From Phlegmacium glaucopus (Eukaryota; Basidiomycota; Agaricomycetes; Agaricales; Cortinariaceae), in contig MU130532.1 of assembly GCA_015039465.1 (NCBI GenBank), positions 541,582 to 605,581 of the forward strand: 64,000 nucleotides of DNA, in the 5' to 3' direction. The position numbers were made by a program, and so were the translations under genes. This document shows positions 6,409 through 27,141 of this stretch, one piece after another. The notes beneath the pieces were generated by a model. It saw only the letters and a program-made list of their open reading frames with translations, had not been told where the DNA came from and did no database searches. Position 1 is the first letter of the stretch. Each line of letters starts with the position of its first letter.

Positions 6409-9400
6409 CTATACAACCTCTAAAATCAAAAGTTCTCCTGATGCATATCCAAGGCAGATTTTAGACAAGTGGTAGCTGACAAATGTTGGCTTCTGGAAAG
6501 GTGGTGGAATCCAGATTTTATATGGCTTTGAGATGTGGAATATTGTGTCTTTATATATGTTAAGGCAAGATGGCTGTAATGAGTAATCTATTTGGCCAGT
6601 AGAATTGTGGATAAAAACACCATCAGGAATTGATGATGCAACAGGTATTTGACTGCCATCAGATAAAGATAGATCTGAGGTACATCCTTTTAGCTCTACT
6701 TCACAATTGCCTGTAGCTGTGTTCCAGATATATACAGTGTTATCTAAAGATGCAGACATAATATGCATACCATCAGGAGAGAAAGTGGCATCTTTGACAC
6801 ACTGTGAATGACCTCTAAGTTCCACCTCACACTCTCCTGTGGTTGTATTCCAGATCCGTGCAGTTTCATCCCAAGATGCAGACACAATATGCATACCATC
6901 AGGAGAGAAAACAGCAGAGTTAACCCATTCTGTATGGCCTTTGAGCTCTCCCTCACACTCTCCTGTGGCTGTATTCCAGATCCGTGCAGTTTTATCCCAA
7001 GATGCAGACACAACATGCATGCCATCTGGAGAGAAAACAGCAGATACAACCTGGTCTGAATGACCTTTCAGCTCTGCCTCACACTCTCCTGTGGCTGTAT
7101 TCCAGATCCATGCAGTGTGATCACCAGATGTTGACACTATGTGCATACCATCAGGAGAGAAGACAGCAGAGTTAACTGATTCTGAATGTCCTTTGAGCTC
7201 TATCATGCACTCTCCTGTTTCTGTATTCCATATCCGTGCAGTGCAATCATCAGATGCAGATACAATATACATCCCATCAACAGAGAATACAGCAGAATTC
7301 ACCCTGTCTGAATGTCCTTTGAGCTCTGCCTCACATTCTCCTGTGACTGTGTTCCAGATCCGTGCAGTATGATCACTAGATGCAGACACAAGATGAATGC
7401 CATCAAGGGAAAAGACAGCAGAGTTGACCTGCTTTAAATGACCTTTACACTCTGCCTCACACTCTCCTGTAGTTGTATTCCAAATCCATGCATTGTGGTC
7501 ATCAGATGTTGACACAATATGCATACCATCAGGAGAGAAGATGGCAGAGTTAACACATTTTAAATGTCCTTTAAGCTCTGCCTCACAGTTTCCTGTGACT
7601 GTATTCCAGATCCGTACAGTGTGATCATAAGATGCAGACACAACATGCATACTATCTGGAGAGAATACAGCAGATGTAACACAGCTTGAATGTCCTTTCA
7701 GCTCTGCCTCACACCCTCTTGTGGCCACATTCCAGATATGTACAGTGTGATCATTAGATGCAGATACAATGTGCATACCATTAGGAGAGAAGACAGCAGA
7801 GTTAACACATTTTGAATGTCCTTTAAGCTCTGCCTCACACATTCCTGTGACTGTATTCCAGATCCGTACAGTATGATCATAAGATGCAGACACAACATAC
7901 ATACCATCTGGAGAGAATACAGCAGATGTGACCTGATCTGAATGTCCTTTCAGCTCTGCCTCACAGTTTCCTGTAGCTGTATTCCAGATCCATGCAGTGG
8001 CATCATTAGATGCTGACACAATATGCATACCATTAGGAGAGAAGACAGCAGAGTTAACACCTTTGAGCTCTCCCTCACACTCTCCTGTGGCTGTATTCCA
8101 GATCCGTGCAGTTTCATCCCAAGATGCAGACACAACATGCATGCTATCTGGAGAGAACACAGCAGATACAACATAGTCTGAATGTCCTTTCAGCTCTGCC
8201 TCACACTCTCCTGTGGCTGTATTCCAGATTCTTACAGTCTTATCATAAGATGCAGAGACAATATGCATATCATCAGGAGAGAAGACAGCAGAGTAGACCC
8301 AGTCTGAATGTCCTTCCAGCACTGCTTCACACTCTCCTGTAGCTGCATTCCAGATCTGTACAGTGTGGTCATAACATGCAGACACAATATGCATACCATC
8401 AGCAGAGAAGGCAGCAGATTTGACTATATCTGAATGTCTTAGAACTGCTTCAGACAGGCTCCATGTTTTTCTTTTTCCCAAGCGGAGCTTCCATGGGCAA
8501 TTAATCCCACCTCCATATGTCTCCCAGATATCTGATTTTGCTGGCAGCCAAACTAATGCTGAAGGACATCCTTCAAGACTATTATTTTTAATAAAATCAA
8601 ATTTTTTTCTCAAGAACTGTTCAGCATCAATCACTGTCATTGTAAACAACCTTTGGGTCTAGGTTTCTGTTGTTAATACAATGCATCTGTAGCAACAAAA
8701 CAATAACTTACATTTGCCCAACTTCCTAGCTTATGCAGTGAATCCATTGCACTCCCCAACTTTCCTAAAATACTCAAACAATCCATCCATCGCAGAAGAT
8801 GTCTTTGGAAAAAATGCTTCAATTCATCAGATCCATGGTTATTGTCTGCATGAGTGAAGTGAAAAGCCCAGCTACTACAAGCATATGCAAGAGATTCAGA
8901 AATATCTCCACATTTCCTCTCCAACAAATAGTGTACCCTTTCCTTCTGTGACCATTCTTTCTCCATCAAGGCCAGACACTGAAGTGCTAGATGTTTATGT
9001 GAAATACAAGGGTCAAGATAGTGCTTTGGGGAATGAATTTGATTACTGATGAAATCATGGAAGGAAGTATGCAAGATTGAGATGGGTAAATCAGAGTCTT
9101 GAGATGGGATATATATCAAGGAATAAAGAGAAGAAAGGGCAGCTTCAGTGTGTTCTATGGGCATTTGCATCAAAGAACTGATGGCAGTCATAGAAAGAGG
9201 ATTATAGGCATATACAATAGCTGTAAGAACCATGCCTATATCTAAAGTCTCTCCCACATTTGTAGAGGCATAGGCAGCATCCAATATTCTTTCATAAAGA
9301 ACATCAAGTGGATAGGTTAGACCTGATGTTGATTCCAATGTAAAATTAACCACATCTGAAAGACGCCGAGGCATATAAGAGCTACCTCTCTGAGCAATAT

Positions 9401-10491
9401 ATTTGCAGACAGTTGCTGCATATATAAACAAAGTGCCAGACATGTTGACCAGCCTTTCAACTTCAGTCTGAGGAGGCCAGTCATGCCTCTTTAAACAACT
9501 TTGGCCATCAAGCAAACAGGCTCTGATATAGAGTTCAATATCAGCCTTTGCAATCTCCTTTTCAACCTCATGAAGAATGAAGTTTGAATGAGCCCAGGAT
9601 TTATTAAAGGACTCCAAGAGCCTCATTTCTGGACGGCTGGTAATGAAGAACTTCACTGGAAGAGAAGCATTGTGCTTTAAGATCATAGAAAGTAACTCAG
9701 TCACAAGGGACTGGTCAGAGCACTCATCCAGAGCATCAAGAACAATAACTGGGACAACTGCTACATCCCTAGTATCCTTGTATGCAGCTGTGAGTGGTCT
9801 AACAATGAAATTCAGGAATTGTTTGCCAATCCTCCAAGATGAGCAGTCAGGATGGGCTTCTACTACATCCAGGATGAGGTGGGAAAGGGAGGGAATATAC
9901 CTTGCCAACTGAAGGGAGATAGTGGGTATGATACAACGGACATCACTGGTATCCACCCGGAGATGAGAAGCGAAAAAGGTACCACCAAGGGATTGCTTTT
10001 CATCAAGCATCTCACTGAATGAGTAGGCAATTGTTGTTTTGCCAGTCCCAGCCATCCCGTTGAGCCAGTATACCTTTGGGGTTGTAGTATCACTGGCCCA
10101 TACTCGCAGTGTATCGAGGATTACTTGGCGAGTGTTCTCTGTACATGCGTTACGTGGAGCAGGAGATGCTGCGTCGTATTCCGCAAACTGAGCACGTGGC
10201 AAGAGTTTTTCACGTAGTGCATTCTATAAACAAGCGTTCAGCGATGATCATCTCATTTCAAAGATTATATATCCTTACTATCACTAATGTTTGAGACCTT
10301 TGCTCATTTCCATCAGGATTGGATGGCGCATGCCAGTGGATCTGGCACGGTGAGAACTGTCAGTACACAAACATCGGTTTTTATGCGGGTAGAATGATGC
10401 GTACATTGTTGGCCATGTTAAAGGTCGGCTGATGCAGACATACATCATGAGCACCTTGGAAGACAGAGAATCGGCTGTTTGGAAGTGACAT
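6409..10491 (-). CDS. NOD-like receptor: NACHT NTPase with 14 WD40 repeats
   Basis: Four exons join in phase 0: 10491-10405, 10356-10279, 10223-8712 and 8658-6409, with introns of 48, 55 and 53 nt. They give about 1308 residues. The short N-terminus has the FQGAHD...F pattern common at the front of basidiomycete NLRs. The NACHT domain has Walker A GMAGTGKTT (about 111-119), Walker B VIVLDALDE (about 214-222) and FFITSRP (about 247-253). After a helical spacer, 14 WD40 repeats of 42 residues start near 634; blade 4 lacks about four residues. Fungal NWD proteins such as HET-E/HET-D bind NTP and sense non-self through the WD40 surface, and some trigger cell death. The ligand here is unknown. The start is the methionine of exon 1 (MSLPNSRF), since upstream frames do not splice in phase. 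Confidence 0.88.
7000..8440 (-). repeat. Tandem 126-bp WD40 repeat array within the NLR gene
   Basis: The repeat unit encodes 42 residues with the fixed frame GHS..V.SAVFSPDGMHIVSAS.D.. (shown with gaps) ending RIWNTATGECEAELK. Neighbouring units are very similar at DNA level over the whole of about 6640-8440. Differences concentrate at the two residues after GHS and at the residues around the SAS.D turn, which in HET-D/E-type repeats are the hypervariable, surface-exposed sites. Confidence 0.85.
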
Positions 10492-18288: not shown

Positions 18289-18718
18289 GTAGGGCCCGTG
18301 TACAATCTCACTACATCACGTGCTGTGACATTCCGTGACTCACACAAGTGCTTGTGCTTGGGATTCATGTTCTTCAATGCATTGGGACTAGTTATATGTC
18401 AAATAGATCAAATATTTAAATTTAAATTAAGGGATATTAACATGCTCTAGCTCTTTCATAACAGATTCCGGAAAAACACGGTGTCTCAATATCCATATAA
18501 ATGAGGGAGAGAAAGATGTATTTTCTTAATAGCGTCTCAACTAGGTAGTAATTTAAAAATTGGGTCTTGCCACGATATACATATTCCTATTCCCTAGGAT
18601 CCTGCGCAGCTGGATAAGGAGGTTCACCCCTGTTGCAGATGCTATTAAACTAATGGTGGTCTCTCATGGAATGTCACACATAGTCACGTGATGTGGTGGC
18701 CATGTACATGGGCCCTAC
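18289..18718. mobile_element. Small inverted-repeat element (MITE-like), non-coding
   Basis: The left arm 18289-18334 (GTAGGGCCCGTGTAC through CATCACGTG to GTGACATTCC) is matched in inverse orientation by 18668-18718 (GGAATGTCAC through CACGTGATG to TGGGCCCTAC). The 330 bases between are AT-rich and have no frame. Similarity between the flanks seems to continue past the left arm and past the far side of the RecQ unit (from 25492), though weakly. Confidence 0.55.
18710..18718. repeat. Left target-site duplication GGGCCCTAC
   Basis: Identical to 25483-25491 in direct orientation, immediately outside the TAGGCTC end. Confidence 0.65.
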
Positions 18719-18798
18719 TAGGCTCGTCCCCATCCAGTATTTCGGACATATTACATAATGTCATCAGTTGCGCGTGACGAGGCAACTCGAAATACCGG

Positions 18799-19010
18799 CT
18801 GGGCATTCTCGTCGCCCTTTTGGCGGGTGAGATTTTTCCCTGCCAATTCAGAGGTGGTCACTTCGTCGAAAAATGACTTCGAGGTAAAAAAAATACCAAA
18901 AATTGAATATATATTTTCTTTTTGCATTTCAATTTTGAGTGATAAAGAGTATACAACTTTTTTTCCAAAATTTCTATTTTACTCCGTCGTCATCGCATTT
19001 GGGTCCGTGC
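18799..19010 (+). repeat. Left terminal inverted repeat (aligned core)
   Basis: Runs from CTGGGCATTCTCGTCG to GGGTCCGTGC and matches 25163-25377 inverted. The outer 80 bases (18719-18798) differ from the right end but hold a short inverted pair, GTATTTCG (18737-18744) and CGAAATAC (18788-18795). The open frame across this TIR also appears in the right TIR, so it is a repeat artefact and not a gene. Confidence 0.9.
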
Positions 19011-19018
19011 AACTTAGA

Positions 19019-19354
19019 TCAGAAATCCTCGTCAACCTCGTCTCTGTCTGAATCGAACCCATCCTCTTCCTCAAACTCTATCCCTAGATCCAGTTTATCC
19101 ATGTCAGGGGCCACATCAACCTCCTCAAGCCTGGTTAGTGTCGGAGATTCCACCTCGAGCTCATCAAAGTCTGGCAGTGGCAGTTCATCATCTTCGAGAC
19201 CGTCTTCAAGTTCAGAATCATCAATATCCTCCTGGCATGGTTTATCACCCGAGTCAGTGATTATGGGAGAGGGTGTCATGACAGACGAGCGTTCGGCAGC
19301 ATTGGGATGTGCAGGTTGATGGTTGCTGGCCAGGGTTGAGACTGGTGTCAGGTT
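19019..19354 (-). other. Acidic open tail in frame after the DUF6589 stop
   Basis: Directly after the TGA the same frame runs on for 111 codons: NLTPVSTLASNHQPAHP, then a strongly acidic stretch (DDSELEDGLEDDELPLPDFDELE and similar, shown in part) ending EVDEDF just outside the left TIR. A CGA to TGA change would explain the stop. It may instead be the real C-terminus with unused sequence behind it. Confidence 0.45.
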
Positions 19355-22300
19355 TCAACATTCACGGAGACGGTTGTACTGTGCGTTAAACTCTGCGAGT
19401 GGATTGTTGGTGGTGGTAGTTCCATGGGACAGCGCTGAAAGTCCAGTTGATATGATATCTGGAACCGGTGTATTGTTTGCATCCAGTCCCCTTCCCAGCT
19501 TCACTGTGTAAACTTCGTGTTCCTTCAATACATCCATTAGCACGTTAATGTCTTTTTGAAGATCGGGTGCTGAATGAGTCTTTCCCTGCCTAGAGCCCAA
19601 TTCAACATTCAGTTTCATTGATAATCTACGCAGGACGTCGATACATGGTGATACGAGCGCAAGCCAGTCCCATGAATGTGAATCGCCATCCGCCTTGTAT
19701 ATTTTCTGGACTCGCATTTTGTAAGCATTGATGAATCGGGGGAGATAAGTAACTGACCTTGATCCAAAAATTGAGATGCTCCTGTACAAGATCAATCTCA
19801 ACAAAAGCATTCGGTTTTCCTGTGGGATTCAGTAACCAATTTTGGGTTATTATATCCCTGAATAAAGATAAATAAGTGAAGATTACCTTTGATAGTTGGA
19901 ACACGACATACCGTAGACCTTTAGACCAGACATTCACTAAATTATGGAAAAGATGGAGCATTTCATGAGCATATTTCGACCGCCCGCTGCCTCGATATGC
20001 AAATGTCCACATCTTTAGGACAAGAATGACCAATCCGGAATCACCAGCTTTTACTGCATCTGCAAACAACCGGGTAAGAAGTGCATCGCGCATGAATAGG
20101 ACAGCATTTTCAAAAACCATGTCGCCTTGGTCTTCCTTCTTCAAGCTGTTTTGAACATTTTGGACAGGGGTTGGACCAGAACTTGAAGCGCTTGCTGCGG
20201 CTGTCAGAGGCGAAATGGAGGCTAGAGTATGGATGGTCGCTGGCAGGGATTTCGGGGCTTCTTGTTTGGCCTTGAGTTTGGCAATTTGTTGGTGTTCAGC
20301 TGTCTCTCTTGGCTGGCGAAGCTCTTGCACACGGTCAGCATCCGCATAGCACTCCAGGATCTTCTCGGCATGTGCTTGAACATCGGCCCAGGAAGTATAC
20401 CGAGCAAGATACTCCTCGATTGTGTTTGTGTTTGATACCTGGAGAAGGAGGTACAGGACACGAGCATACAAGGAAACCATGATGAGGTCTCGGCAAACAC
20501 GGAAACTGGGCAGAGAGGAGAGAACGATGGGGAGGCGGTCAAGACATGTGTTGTGGAAGGCAAGACTGCCTGGACTACGAGTTGATGACTTCCCAAAATG
20601 AACTGTTAGAAGCCCATGGCAGTCTGCGATCTTGGCGTGGAAGAGACCAGGCATGAGGACTATGTGTTTCCATGAGTCTTCACCATCTTCATGTCCGACC
20701 CGGATGTTCAAAATTGAGCGCTGCTGAGCAATAGTTAGCTGGTCACCTGCAATGATTTTGACATATTCAGGAAAGCTTTCCGAATTATCAGAGTTGGGGT
20801 GGAGCTCGTTTGCTATAGCCTCGATGATTTCAACATTCCCAGTAATTGTGCTTTCATCAATTTCCAGCGCAGGCAAAGGGTGAATGGGTGTTTGGTGGAC
20901 ATCAATTATGTCATTGCTATGGGGGCAAGCGTCCTTGAGATCCTCAGACCACTTTGCAAAGCCTTCCCCGCCGTGTGTCACAATTATTGAAAGAATGGTG
21001 TGGACAAGCGCATCGTTCATGAGGGTGGATTCTGGCTCTGTGAACTCAAGGTCTTCTAGTCGAAGTGGGCCTGCATTTGAAATTTGCTCATCAAGAATCC
21101 TGGTCGCCAGATCCTTGAGGTTTGCGTTGTGAAGTGGTATCACTGTAGCACAGGTCCCATTTTCCTGTGCATCTAAATAATACTTGGTTGAACCTTTGAA
21201 CCTGATTTTGATCATGTTGACTTACTTTTGCGCCCCACAATTTGTTCACCCACTCGAACCATCATGTTTATATTGTCATACACTGTCACATACAAGCCTG
21301 AGGATGCAATTCTCCGAGCGGTCTCCCGACAGGCCTGGGACAACTGAAAAAGAGTCCCAGGTGTCCGTTTCCGTGGCTTTTTAATTGTTGCCTGCAAAAA
21401 CATTTGAGTTTTATTTGGTTGAGGATTTAACAAAGCTCTACTGACGGTCAGCTTTGCAGGTTTTCTTTGATCAATGACATTCCCATAGCCCACAGTAATT
21501 CCCAAAGATGAAAGGACAGCAAAATGTTGTCGTTGTGCACCAGTCGCCATCAGGTAAGTTCCATGAATGGCCTGTGCGTAGCTATTTGTCTGACTTCTTG
21601 ACTTGAGTAATGTCAGGATGGCTGAGCCTTCCATCTATCCCACTGTTAGAAAATTCAAGAGAATTGCTGTAAGTCTCACAGCCACTCACAATCCTCTTCT
21701 TCTCTGCCCATTTTTCCGAAAGTTGAGATTTTTGCCTTGAAGTTATTGAGAACGCATCCAACAGTGAGAAAAAATTTGGAGCAAGTGAGCGCAGAGTGTT
21801 GGTAAGGCCTGAAATACTGTAGCCCAAAAAGAAGTCTTCGTTGATGACTTTGTTTGTCTTCGATAGGATGCCTTCCCAGGAAATTGCCCTCGCTTCTTCA
21901 CCTGCGACCTTCTGGGCCTGTTGTATCACCCACCCTTCAATCAGGTTGCGCACTGTTGCGCTGTAGCTGGATGTTGTCCAGTATCCCAGGATGCGCAAGA
22001 CGGTCACTTGGTGCTTGAAGAACCCAAGCCAGCGCCAATCATCACTCAAGTTATTGATTGGGTTAAAGACATAGTCAAGGAATTCGGCAAGTGTAATCCC
22101 CTTCTCCTTCAGCAACTCCAATACATCCTCAAAATCTGACACCCTCGCTTCTCTGGCCCTCTCATCAGTCAACTTCTCTGCCTCGCACTTGTGTGCCCGG
22201 TTCCTGGCCAATGTTTCAATCCGTGTTTTGTGTGCAGCTGCACTTTGAACTTTTCTTTCTGTGGCAGGGCTGTAGAGGAAATCACTGCTTGTATGAGTTG

Positions 22301-22622
22301 CCTCCATGGGAAGTGAGGAACTGCGTGAGTGTCTAGACTCTTGATTGCGTGTAGCCATTGGGGTGAACAAATTGTTGGGATTATAATTATTAGATCCATG
22401 GTGCTGCAATGTTGCATATCGGAGGGGTATATCGTCAGAGGTTTCAGGTGCTTGCCAAGAGCGGAGAGGTATGTTGTCAGATTCCAGATAAAAGTTCAAG
22501 TTGCCTTTAACAGTTTCCTTTAGGGGTATGTCCTCTGATGTGAAATCTTCAAGACATTCCACATCGCTGGAGCTGTAGTCTGGTGGGTCTGAGGGAGGTA
22601 ATGTATCGTCCTGTTGCCTCAT
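19355..22622 (-). CDS. DUF6589 protein, candidate transposase of the element
   Basis: Six exons fit: 22622-21690, 21634-21446, 21391-21226, 21172-19912, 19857-19758 and 19705-19355, giving about 999 residues. Introns are 52-55 nt. Landmarks of DUF6589 are seen: LLKSRSQTNSYAQ, a TGAQRQ block, YDNINMMVRVGEQ followed by ENGTCATVIPL, IIAGDQLT, a GLFHAKIADCHG block, GDSGLVILVLKMW, and NWLLNPTGK with EIDLVQEHLNFWIK. Conserved D (GDQ), H/D and D..EH residues could form a metal site like an RNase H-fold nuclease; that is inference, since the family has no proven function. The frame stops at TGA after RLREC but stays open beyond (separate entry). The start MRQQDD is used; an upstream in-frame Met at 22688 would overlap the RecQ leader. 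Confidence 0.75.
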
Positions 22623-22728
22623 TCTCCAGCGTAGACAGGTTTGTGAATGATAGTGAAACTTGAGAATAAATTTGCTTCCGCTCATCATTCCAGACTTGGA
22701 TTACTTTTTTCCCCCTAATGTTACCCCT
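22623..22728. promoter_or_regulatory. 106-bp bidirectional promoter gap
   Basis: Only 106 bases separate the start codons of DUF6589 (22622, minus) and RecQ (22729, plus), so both must use one control region. It contains a T-run and CCCCTAATG near the RecQ start. No clear TATA box is seen. Confidence 0.6.
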
Positions 22729-25071
22729 ATGTCCTCTCAGCTCTTCCCCGCTGGAACAAGACACAAACCAAAGCTGCAACGAGTCTTACCCAAACGAACC
22801 TCCCAACTCTCAAGCGCTCAACGTGAAGCTATCAAAAAGGAGGTTGACGACCTTCCCAACCTCATCAAAATAAATTATACAGGATGGAAGGATGGTGCTA
22901 AGGAGTTTCAGCTATCAGCCATTGCAGCACAGGTTTGTGGGACAGATGTTCTGCTTCAAGCAGCTACAGGATCTGGGAAAACTGGCATCGCAGCAGCCCC
23001 ACATCTTCTACCTTCAAGTGAAGGAAAGGTTACTCTATTTGTTTCCCCTCTTCTCGCACTCCAGGAGGAACAGGTATGACACCCTAGTATCTGCTCTATG
23101 AACACTGACTGAATTAAATTGATGATCCAGGTTTCAACATTCAAGGAGGAATTTAAACTTTCCGCAACTGCTATCAACAGTGCAAATGGAGGATGCAGCC
23201 CAAACACGATGGAGGTAGTACCATCCCCAAGTTTACCTTGTTGTATTCTGATTAACTTAACTTTTTATCCAGGATGTAGTGACCGGCAAACATCAAATTG
23301 TAATACTGTCCCCCGAGATGCTCCTCTCTCGCCGTTTTATTGATGGTGTACTTCGAAAACCTGAATTTGGATCCCGATGTCTATCAGTCTTTATTGATGA
23401 AGCCCATTGTATTTCACACTGGGGTAATTCTTTCCGCAAGAAGTATGCATCGTTAGGGATTGTTCGTGCATTTTTACCAAGGGACACGCCTATTGTTGCG
23501 GTCAGTGCTACCTTGACCCCTCGCGTCAAAGACGACCTAATAACCAAGCTCCAACTTGGCAACAACCATCTCTATCTCAATATTGGCAATGAACGCCCCA
23601 ACATCGCACAAGTTGTTCGTGCAATGGAACATCCAATGAATACTTTTCGTGACCTCAACTTTCTTGTGCCCGAGAACATGACCATGCGAGATGACATCAA
23701 AAAGGGATTCGTTTATATTGACGATATCAAGGAAGGCGGGATGGCAACTGATTATCTCAACACTCGCATCTGTGATGATCTTCGGTCAGAAGGACTTGTG
23801 CACCCATACAATGCATCAATGTCAAAGAAATACAGGAAGGTGGTTATGGATCTATTTAGAACAGGTATTGTGCGCATCCTAATTTGCACAGATGCTGCCA
23901 GGATGGTGAGTTCCTGGGTTTAATGATCAATAAGACTTGACTTACTTTGGGTCAATAGGGATGCAACATCCCTGATATTGATGTTGTTGTACAGTGGAAG
24001 ACACCACGCGACCTGTCATCATGGGTGCAACGTGCTGGTCGTGCTGCAAGAGGGCCAGGCCACCAGGGTCTGGCAGTCATGATCGTCGAAAAGTCCGCCT
24101 TTGAGGTTGTATCAGCACCAACAGATGGTCTCGAGGACAGAGGATTAAACTCACCTGATCGGCAACCAAGCAAGGCTTCTTCGGGTTGGGGAAGGGGCAT
24201 TCAAGGTCGTGGTAGATTTTGGGGTGGACAGCGAGGCAGTGGTGTGAAAGGAGGAGCTGCATATGGCATCTTACGCGGTTCAAAGCGAGGTCAGCATAGT
24301 GGAACACATGATATTTCTGGCGAAACAAGGGCTGAACCACATGGGGCTGTGGAAAGCGCACCAAAGGAAGGTCTGTATCTATATATTCAAACGAGCAAAT
24401 GCCGACGGATAAAAGTCTTCAAGAACACACCTTCTGGTTAGTGGTGGATTGAGAATACAAGCAAAAAAAGTGACATACCATTTTGTTGCACAGTGATAAT
24501 CTTGGAGCGATGTTGCGACCGATGCAACCCAAAGTTATTTGATGAAACACACCCTGGAAAACCAATTTTGGCCTCTCGAACTCGCACCACAAAGAAAGGA
24601 CCTCCTCAAGATTGCGTACGCGAGGCCCTCTATGCATGGCGATTATCCATCAAGCGCGAGCTGTATGGAAGGGCATTGTGGGGTGCACATGCAATACTCG
24701 ACGATATACACTGTGAGATGCTGGCATCAGTTGGGCCTATCAAGACAAGCGAGCAACTTGCCTTGTTGCTGGAGAACACTTGGGCAAGATGGAGTGTCCT
24801 CAGGGAACGTCTCTTTGCCATGATGGTCAATTTCCAGATGACAGAACTAGAACCTGCAAAACCTGCTGCAAAACGATCATCAACAATGGCCCTGGATCCC
24901 AATGAACTCAACGCACCTGCAGCCAAGCGTGCCAAACAACCGAGTGTCAACACTGCTTCCCAAACCAATCCCCGAGTGTCGATGCCATCGAAGAAGCGAC
25001 AGGAAGTACTGCCAGCCGTGTTTCCACCATCAAGCTATGACTCGTTCTTCTCCTCATTTAGTCGTTCATGA
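22729..25071 (+). CDS. RecQ-family DNA helicase of the element
   Basis: Five exons, 22729-23073, 23131-23214, 23273-23905, 23959-24436 and 24494-25071, give about 705 residues. Helicase motifs in order: the Q-motif region (FQLSAIAAQV), motif I ATGSGKTG, motif Ia VSPLLALQEEQV, motif II FIDEAHCISHWG, motif III AVSATLTP, motif V region TDAARMGCNIPD and motif VI VQRAGRAARG. A RecQ-type zinc module follows (CRRI...CCDRC). A Gly/Arg-rich insert lies between motif VI and the zinc module. RecQ enzymes unwind DNA 3' to 5'. Inside a mobile unit it could open ends or repair gaps, which is inference. The last exon ends 91 bases before the right TIR. RecQ genes are also amplified near fungal telomeres, so an alternative origin is a telomere-linked helicase. 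Confidence 0.85.
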
Positions 25072-25162
25072 GTGGGGGTTGGATGGTCACAATGGTGGAA
25101 ATTGACATGCGATATGCGCATACTCAAAACATTAGCATGATTTTTCGGATGGATTTTTCATC

Positions 25163-25377
25163 GCACGGACCCAAATGCGATGACGACGGAGTAAAAACAG
25201 AAATTTTGGAAAAAATGTTGTATACTCTTTATCACTCAAAATTGAAATGCAAAAAGAAAACATATATTCAATTTTAGGCGTTTTTTTTTGACCTTGAAGT
25301 CATTTTTCGACGAAGTGACCACCTCTGAATTGGCGGGGAAAAATCTCACCCGCCAAAAGGGCGACGAGAACGCCCAG
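25163..25377 (-). repeat. Right terminal inverted repeat (aligned core)
   Basis: Inverse copy of 18799-19010. The outer part 25378-25482 contains a perfect 10-bp hairpin, ATTGTCACTC at 25417-25426 and GAGTGACAAT at 25434-25443 with a 7-base loop, and two CTCGCGAG palindromes. These may be protein-binding sites. Confidence 0.9.
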
Positions 25378-25482
25378 TCCGCTCGCGAGCTCGCTCCTTC
25401 CAAAGTCATGTGCTTGATTGTCACTCGTCATAAGAGTGACAATCCGAATAGAGCTCGCGAGTGTGACAGGCTTGAGAGTCTA

Positions 25483-25491
25483 GGGCCCTAC
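25483..25491. repeat. Right target-site duplication GGGCCCTAC
   Basis: Direct copy of 18710-18718. A tenth matching T follows here, but on the left that T is the first base of the element. Confidence 0.65.
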
Positions 25492-25594
25492 TTACCTTAG
25501 TGTTACCTGAAGTCACATGTATGTCACATCACATGACATTTGCTTAATGTTAATGCTCAATTGACAATACACTACAAAGCCTTTAGTATAGACG

Positions 25595-27141
25595 ATGCCA
25601 GCAGACAAGCTCTTAACCGATCTCCATATTTCGTACATCCAAGAACTTGGAAAGGCGAGTGTTTCTTCTTGTACAGGCTTTTCTTGTTTTTCATTATGAA
25701 CCTTGTTAACTTACTGGCTGGTACCACCTTTACAGAACAAAGATGATCTCACCTACCATCTTACTGCTCACTTGAGGCTTAACGCTGTTTATTGGGGCTT
25801 TACTGCGCTTTGTATTCTTGGTCACCCCGAAGCACTAAGCAGAGATGAGATGATCGACTTCGTGATGAGTTGTTGGGACGAGGAGGCAGGTATTGTCACC
25901 ATTTCATTTCCTCCTAATCTTCCAGACCTTTATGGTTCAGATTAAATTGCTGATATCATTTGTCGTGGTGCTTTTGCCATCATACAGGAGCATTCGGTGC
26001 CCACCCCGACCATGATGCCCACCTTCTCTCTACTTTGAGCGCGATTCAGATATTGGTCACGCAGGATGCATTGGATAGGATGGACAAAGATCGAGTGGTC
26101 AAATGTGATTCCATCCAACACGCCCTTTTCCCCCATCTAATCTAATGCTACATACATACAACACCAGTCATACTGTCACTACAACAACCCTCCGGTGTAT
26201 TCGCAGGCGATGCTTTCGGGGAAACAGACACGCGATTCTTATACTGTGCTGTCAACGCTCTATCCTTGTTAGGTCGGCTGGATGAAATGAATAAAGTCAA
26301 AGCGGTAGAGTATATTGAGCGGTGCAAAAATTATGACGGAGGGTTTGGAAGTAGCGTTGGTGCTGAGAGCCATGCTGCGCAAGGTATGCTGGCATTCCTG
26401 ACTTCGATTATCAATCTCATCATCTTTTCTATCTTGTTTTACGGTCCTTATCATCATTTAACGGCCATACACAGTATTTGTATGTGTAGCAGCGCTTGCG
26501 ATCCTGGACCGGTTAGACGCGGTAGATGTCGACACTCTAGCTTGGTGGTTATCCGAGCGGCAGCTGCCTAGTGGAGGATTGAATGGACGGCCAGAAAAAC
26601 TTGAAGATGTGAGTCGTTTCGTTCTCCCTCAAGTCATGTTTCCACATGTACCATCGCGGCGGCGGGTTTCTACGCTGTACGGCGCTGATTATTCTGTTTC
26701 ATTAGGTCTGTTATAGCTTTTGGGTACTCTCCGCACTGTCAATTTTGAATAAGGTGTCATCTATCAACGCGGACAAGCTGTCTTCCTTTATTTTATCTGC
26801 CCAGGTGGGTGTTTTATGATTCAATGCCTCCCACACATGCAACCCACGTGTTCACCGTTCCATTTAAATCATTCATTTCAGGACCTCGAGGGCGGTGGTA
26901 TCGCCGATAGACCTGGGGATATGGTGGACGTATTCCACACGCATTTCGGTATTGCGGGTATGTATGAGTCAGTTTTGTAGAGTTGGTGCGTTCCCTCTGA
27001 TATGTGTTACAACAAGGGTTATCTATCCTGGGATATCCTGGTTTGGTTGACCTGGATCCTGTTTATTGCATGCCTGCGAGCGTTATTGAAGCCAAAGGTT
27101 TGCGGAAAGCATGGAAAGCACTTGAGAGGAGACAATCGTAG
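25595..27141 (+). CDS. BET2: Rab geranylgeranyltransferase beta subunit
   Basis: Eight exons, 25595-25654, 25736-25889, 25988-26104, 26168-26383, 26475-26608, 26706-26804, 26882-26957 and 27017-27141, give 326 residues, close to yeast Bet2 (325). Prenyltransferase repeats are clear: [70 protein letters not shown] and [20 protein letters not shown]. Zinc ligands are the D and C of LEDVC and the H of FHTHFG. With the alpha subunit and REP it puts geranylgeranyl groups on Rab GTPases for vesicle traffic. The first intron is GC-AG (AAAG|GCGAGT), needed to keep LGK-NKDDL in frame. Confidence 0.92.

Follow-up and report, generated by a model that had tools for sequence, protein, structure and literature searches.

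A 64,000-bp stretch of the genome of Phlegmacium glaucopus, an agaric of the Cortinariaceae, contains a 6764-bp DNA transposon at positions 18719–25482 that carries a gene for a DUF6589 protein and a gene for a RecQ-like helicase. This stretch, hereafter the window, comprises bases 541582–605581 of contig C181; our genome searches covered the full 60.5-Mb, 259-contig assembly. The transposon opens with the heptamer TAGGCTC (18719–18725, plus strand) and closes with TAGACTC read inward (25476–25482, minus strand; GAGTCTA on the top strand), ends common to other copies. A perfect 9-bp target-site duplication, GGGCCCTAC, flanks it on the left (18710–18718) and right (25483–25491). When the whole window was scanned for the end motif together with a 9-bp repeat, one mismatch being allowed in the repeat, this element gave the sole pair at 2–10 kb spacing, and the same motif scan on 80 base-shuffled 10-kb pieces gave no matches. 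The element is a real transposon, and a preliminary description of the window had its outer limits and the direct repeat outside them right.

Long inverted repeats lie inside the termini. The left arm (212 bp, 18799–19010, plus strand) and right arm (215 bp, 25163–25377, minus strand) are complementary at 95, 94 and 87% in three overlapping blocks and are 94% alike over the 212-base query. The preliminary description had taken these repeats for the ends of the element; they are present as described, but they stop short of the true ends. The outer 80 bp on the left and 105 bp on the right are dissimilar save for the terminal heptamer, and each contains a separate foldback. The left subterminal foldback (18729–18803) has a 16-bp stem with two mismatches (DNA folding z −3.72), and the right one (25382–25461) has a stem of 11 bp, CTCGCGAGCTC, that encloses an inner hairpin (z −4.69).

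Between the repeats stand two divergent genes whose stops lie near the inverted repeats, as first described. The DUF6589 gene (19019–22622, minus strand; 1093 aa as modelled) has six predicted introns at 21635–21689, 21392–21445, 21173–21225, 19858–19911, 19706–19757 and 19326–19379. One exon matches Pfam family PF20231 (DUF6589) at E 4.8e-98, and the homologue P0001 is 84% identical to the modelled protein. The last base of its stop codon is 19019, 8 bp away from the left inverted repeat, and in-frame ATGs at 22685 and 22688 offer possible earlier starts. The superfamily 2 helicase gene (22729–25071, plus strand; 705 aa) has introns at 23074–23130, 23215–23272, 23906–23958 and 24437–24493, the last placed by eye, and ends 91 bp from the right inverted repeat. 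Its spliced product matches a public Phlegmacium glaucopus protein (P0121) with 100% identity over 705 aa. The modelled start codons of the two genes are 106 bp apart, or about 40 bp with an earlier in-frame DUF6589 ATG.

Copies and empty sites across the genome

Other copies of the element have the same type of end, and 9-bp duplications flank 16 of the 20 copies examined, bearing out what the preliminary description had expected of them. The 212-bp repeat of the window element has 13 matches in the assembly: two are its own arms, and six form three more facing pairs, at C189 (895 bp between ends), C247 (901 bp) and C2 (8215 bp). Read by eye, the duplications are ACTGTTGAT/ACCGTTGAT at C189, with one mismatch, TCAAATTTG at C247, and ATGTCCGAT at C2, where seven extra bases stand beside the left end. 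At the five loci with a single match, the motif scan gave neither ends nor a duplication.

DUF6589 occurs at 30 loci in the assembly, counted from Pfam matches, and we sought element ends at eight of them (window, C71, C30, C147, C9, C41, C186 and C241). The C30 and C147 copies are 99.4% identical over 5269 bp and 99.5% over 731 bp; they have the ends CAGGCTCC and different duplications, CTCACGAAT and GGATTTATT. Those at C9 and C41 are 100% identical over 6878 bp at two sites, with ends TAGGTTCG and, again, different duplications (ACCCTTTCT and CTGGTAGCG). A scan with a fixed end motif found ends and perfect duplications at C71 (GACGCTGGG) and C241 (CCCAGCTCC), and found neither in 8 kb at C186. 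On its left side the C71 element abuts the right end of a second copy (L053:2380-2610), after which the same 9 bp follow; the two copies stand in tandem and share a duplication.

Short copies accompany the full-length ones. The end repeat of the C30 family has 42 matches, several of them facing pairs about 0.7 kb apart that are short non-autonomous copies. Ends were retrieved for nine further copies with facing matches among these 42; six are flanked by a 9-bp duplication, which is perfect in five and has one mismatch at C15, and C228, C210 and C125 have no recognised left end. The short copies at C189, C247 and C206 lack both genes yet bear duplications, and the proteins therefore act in trans.

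Two sites preserve the sequence expected before insertion. The C41 insertion interrupts the right end of a C71-type element; joining the flanks of the insertion and keeping the 9-mer once gives GCATAACGTACTGGTAGCGAGTCTAG, the sequence that the uninterrupted C71 end also has. The window element is inserted at the right-hand end of a 430-bp repeat (18289–18718) that has copies elsewhere in the genome; at C245, one such copy continues uninterrupted through ACATGGGCCCTAC and contains the 9-mer once, with one extra base just behind it. Both empty sites are paralogous, not allelic, and the right flank of the window element occurs once in the assembly. At the level of sequence, relatives of the window element have moved. 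The 430-bp repeat itself has inverted ends and gave 20 match rows in the genome, from which 14 candidates were scored.

Foldbacks recur at the ends of diverged families. In eight of ten ends from five families, the longest stem beat every interior window of its own element (41–49 windows each), the exceptions being the C241 left end and the C9 right end; the left and right ends of C30 are near-identical and so do not count independently. DNA folding z-scores over nine ends ranged from −5.0 to +0.1, with −3.7 and −4.7 for the window ends. The stems of the window right end and of C30 have CTCGCGAGCT in common, and the DUF6589 proteins of these two elements are 23% identical.

A predicted transposase and its helicase partner

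DUF6589 and RecQ travel together. A RecQ-like match lies within 12 kb at 24 of the 30 DUF6589 loci, against 0.59 expected. The preliminary description had proposed a recurring adjacent, divergent pair: the pairing recurs, but its orientation does not, since 22 of the 24 linked pairs are convergent and only two, those of the window and C71, are divergent. Across six families, identity falls as low as about 19% for DUF6589 and about 25% for RecQ. The divergences of the two proteins correlate at r 0.96 over 15 pairs and at 0.31 over the 13 that remain without two close pairs, so joint descent is established for the close pairs only. Among 120 listed DUF6589 homologues in other species, 41 lie on a contig equal in size to one that holds a listed RecQ homologue, and for 11 of these the contig is shorter than 200 kb; shifting sizes by 1, 3 or 5 bases as a control left zero such matches. 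Equal contig size stands in here for identity of the contig and carries no information on gene distance on long contigs.

Predicted structure and conserved residues point to DUF6589 as the catalytic protein. Predicted models have the RNase H fold of a catalytic domain; the structural matches put Hermes first and include the P element, RAG1, Transib and ISCth4, and a second model matched Hermes at a Foldseek E of 9.7e-4. Two alignments, A1 and A2, took in 60 and 47 of the 120 homologues listed; those of the 120 with names are called hypothetical, uncharacterized or DUF6589 proteins. The acids of three motifs are near-invariant: YDN (59/60), GDQ (60/60) and ExDxxQEH (59/60, with one gap). In the window gene, all on the minus strand, the candidate catalytic Asp, Asp and Glu (D413, D573 and E876 or E870 of the protein) fall in YDNIN (21266–21280), AGDQLT (20733–20750) and FVEIDLVQEHLN (19770–19805), respectively, and they occupy fitting places along the chain for a candidate active site. 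A Pfam search found no significant similarity between DUF6589 and any other Pfam family, and the hAT and MULE models gave no match. On these models, DUF6589 is very probably the RNase H-fold transposase of the element, in agreement with the recombinase role first proposed for it.

The helicase is RecQ-like in its core. Its Pfam domains are DEAD (PF00270) and Helicase_C (PF00271), neither the RQC nor the HRDC model matched it even to E 10, and its nearest solved chains are WRN and then bacterial RecQ. Linkage alone suggests that it is an accessory partner in transposition, much as first proposed.

Taken together, the element is very likely a DNA transposon that the DUF6589 protein mobilises as its DD(D/E) transposase. 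DUF6589 would recognise ends composed of a terminal TAGRCTC or variant, a subterminal foldback and the inverted repeat, cut them and join them to the two strands of the target at positions 9 bp apart, and repair of the gaps would then yield the 9-bp duplication. We infer both this catalysis and cut-and-paste over replicative movement, as we do every step assigned to the helicase. As a regular travelling partner, the helicase would probably open or resolve DNA at the foldback ends, or process the gapped product. RecQ enzymes work on branched and folded DNA, which makes the opening or resolving of foldback ends our preferred, though unproven, model.

Neighbouring genes lie outside the element. 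A prenyltransferase gene (25594–26716; PF00432) matches at E 3.4e-20 in an open reading frame (ORF) at 26146–26571 and, below threshold, at 1.4e-4 in 25700–25945. Its candidate start codon, an ATG placed by eye near 25594, is about 100 bp right of the element, placing the insertion just upstream of the gene. On the minus strand at 6409–10223, neighbouring ORFs that encode an NPHP3_N/NACHT domain and 14 WD40 stretches, whose repeats are very similar, make up an NLR-like gene, and a Copia-type gag ORF (PF14223, E 4.4e-13) lies at 1973–2854, also on the minus strand.

Rival readings and relation to known transposons

Two rival readings deny the helicase, or the whole unit, a part in transposition. 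Fungi have multicopy subtelomeric RecQ genes with the helicase core only, as in Agaricus bisporus var. burnettii (PMC7473861), and the unit could be such a repeat, or a segmental duplication, rather than a transposon. The helicase genes here are likewise multicopy with only core Pfam domains, and the C71 and C30 copies lie 7 and 13 kb from a contig end. We nonetheless find this reading highly improbable: the window copy begins 560 kb inside its contig, those at C9, C41, C147, C186 and C241 are interior, and the genes are linked to DUF6589 between precise transposon ends with 9-bp duplications. The pair is thus not limited to subtelomeric arrays, a possibility that the preliminary description had raised, most located copies being interior as judged by contig ends, with no telomere-repeat search made. 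It is less far-fetched, if still unlikely, that DUF6589 alone moves the element and that RecQ is a passenger or regulator without a direct part in transposition. The duplications around gene-less short copies and the six DUF6589 loci with no RecQ-like match within 12 kb speak for this, but the pair has been kept across families whose DUF6589 proteins are only about 20% identical, and in both gene orders.

Judged on described features, the element is probably AcademH by kind, and most likely a new member of that group rather than an unknown superfamily. AcademH is an Academ lineage that encodes a helicase and generates 9- or 10-bp duplications (PMC10045372), it is reported from Basidiomycota (PMC10799480), and the Pfam domains given for the group AcademH, KolobokH or Helitron are DEAD and Helicase_C (PMC10045372, PMC10799480). 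The window element likewise sets a helicase, RecQ-like with both those domains, beside its transposase, is of a kind that makes 9-bp duplications, and has a basidiomycete host, the last a weak criterion. Every feature compared fits, the comparison being one of published descriptions. AcademH was reportedly introduced by Kojima (2020, Mob DNA 11:15), by its title from animals and fungi. The preliminary description knew of no described superfamily made up of RecQ and DUF6589; given AcademH, with its helicase and 9-/10-bp duplications, the view that this kind is undescribed probably does not hold. If DUF6589 instead defined a superfamily of its own among helicase-carrying transposons, with the same general chemistry, this would accord with the isolation of DUF6589 among Pfam families, with the lack of any paper naming DUF6589 in the literature searched (PF20231 and IPR046496 likewise returned no relevant paper), and with an AcademH likeness drawn from descriptions rather than Academ sequences. 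We think it improbable, since the helicase, the duplication length and the occurrence in Basidiomycota described for AcademH (PMC10045372; PMC10799480) are all as here. A shade more doubtful is a bolder version, in which DUF6589 and RecQ form a separate, ancient mushroom superfamily whose foldback ends need a dedicated helicase: transposition would depend on unwinding cruciform ends, and the pair would have stayed together while its proteins diverged to about 20–35% identity and its gene order switched between convergent and divergent. The AcademH descriptions, in their available parts, mention neither foldback ends nor two gene orders.

The useful part of the AcademH assignment is the link that it makes from DUF6589, an unassigned Pfam family, to a known kind of transposon. 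Within the literature searched, identifying DUF6589 as a transposase of this kind may be new as annotation. If DUF6589 is a transposase that travels with RecQ, the two genes can be masked as parts of transposons, and presumed expansions of both families in mushrooms would need re-reading. The element also allows the partnership of a eukaryotic transposase with a helicase to be tested, and asks why 9-bp duplications, foldback ends and RecQ co-occur.

Other transposons resemble the element in part. KolobokH, a fungal DNA transposon, also has a RecQ helicase, located downstream of the transposase domain (PMC9587614). Here, RecQ is a separate gene on the opposite strand throughout the 24 linked pairs, the window pair included. 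Kolobok duplications are TTAA, unlike the 9 bp of varied sequence found here; gene arrangement and duplications together do not fit KolobokH. hAT elements make 8-bp duplications as a rule, with exceptions (PMC12730594), whereas those here are 9 bp. hAT (Hermes), the P element, RAG1/Transib and the IS256-type ISCth4 differ from DUF6589 in having no sequence-level Pfam match to it, but with all of them it shares a predicted RNase H fold with a helical insertion before the last acid.
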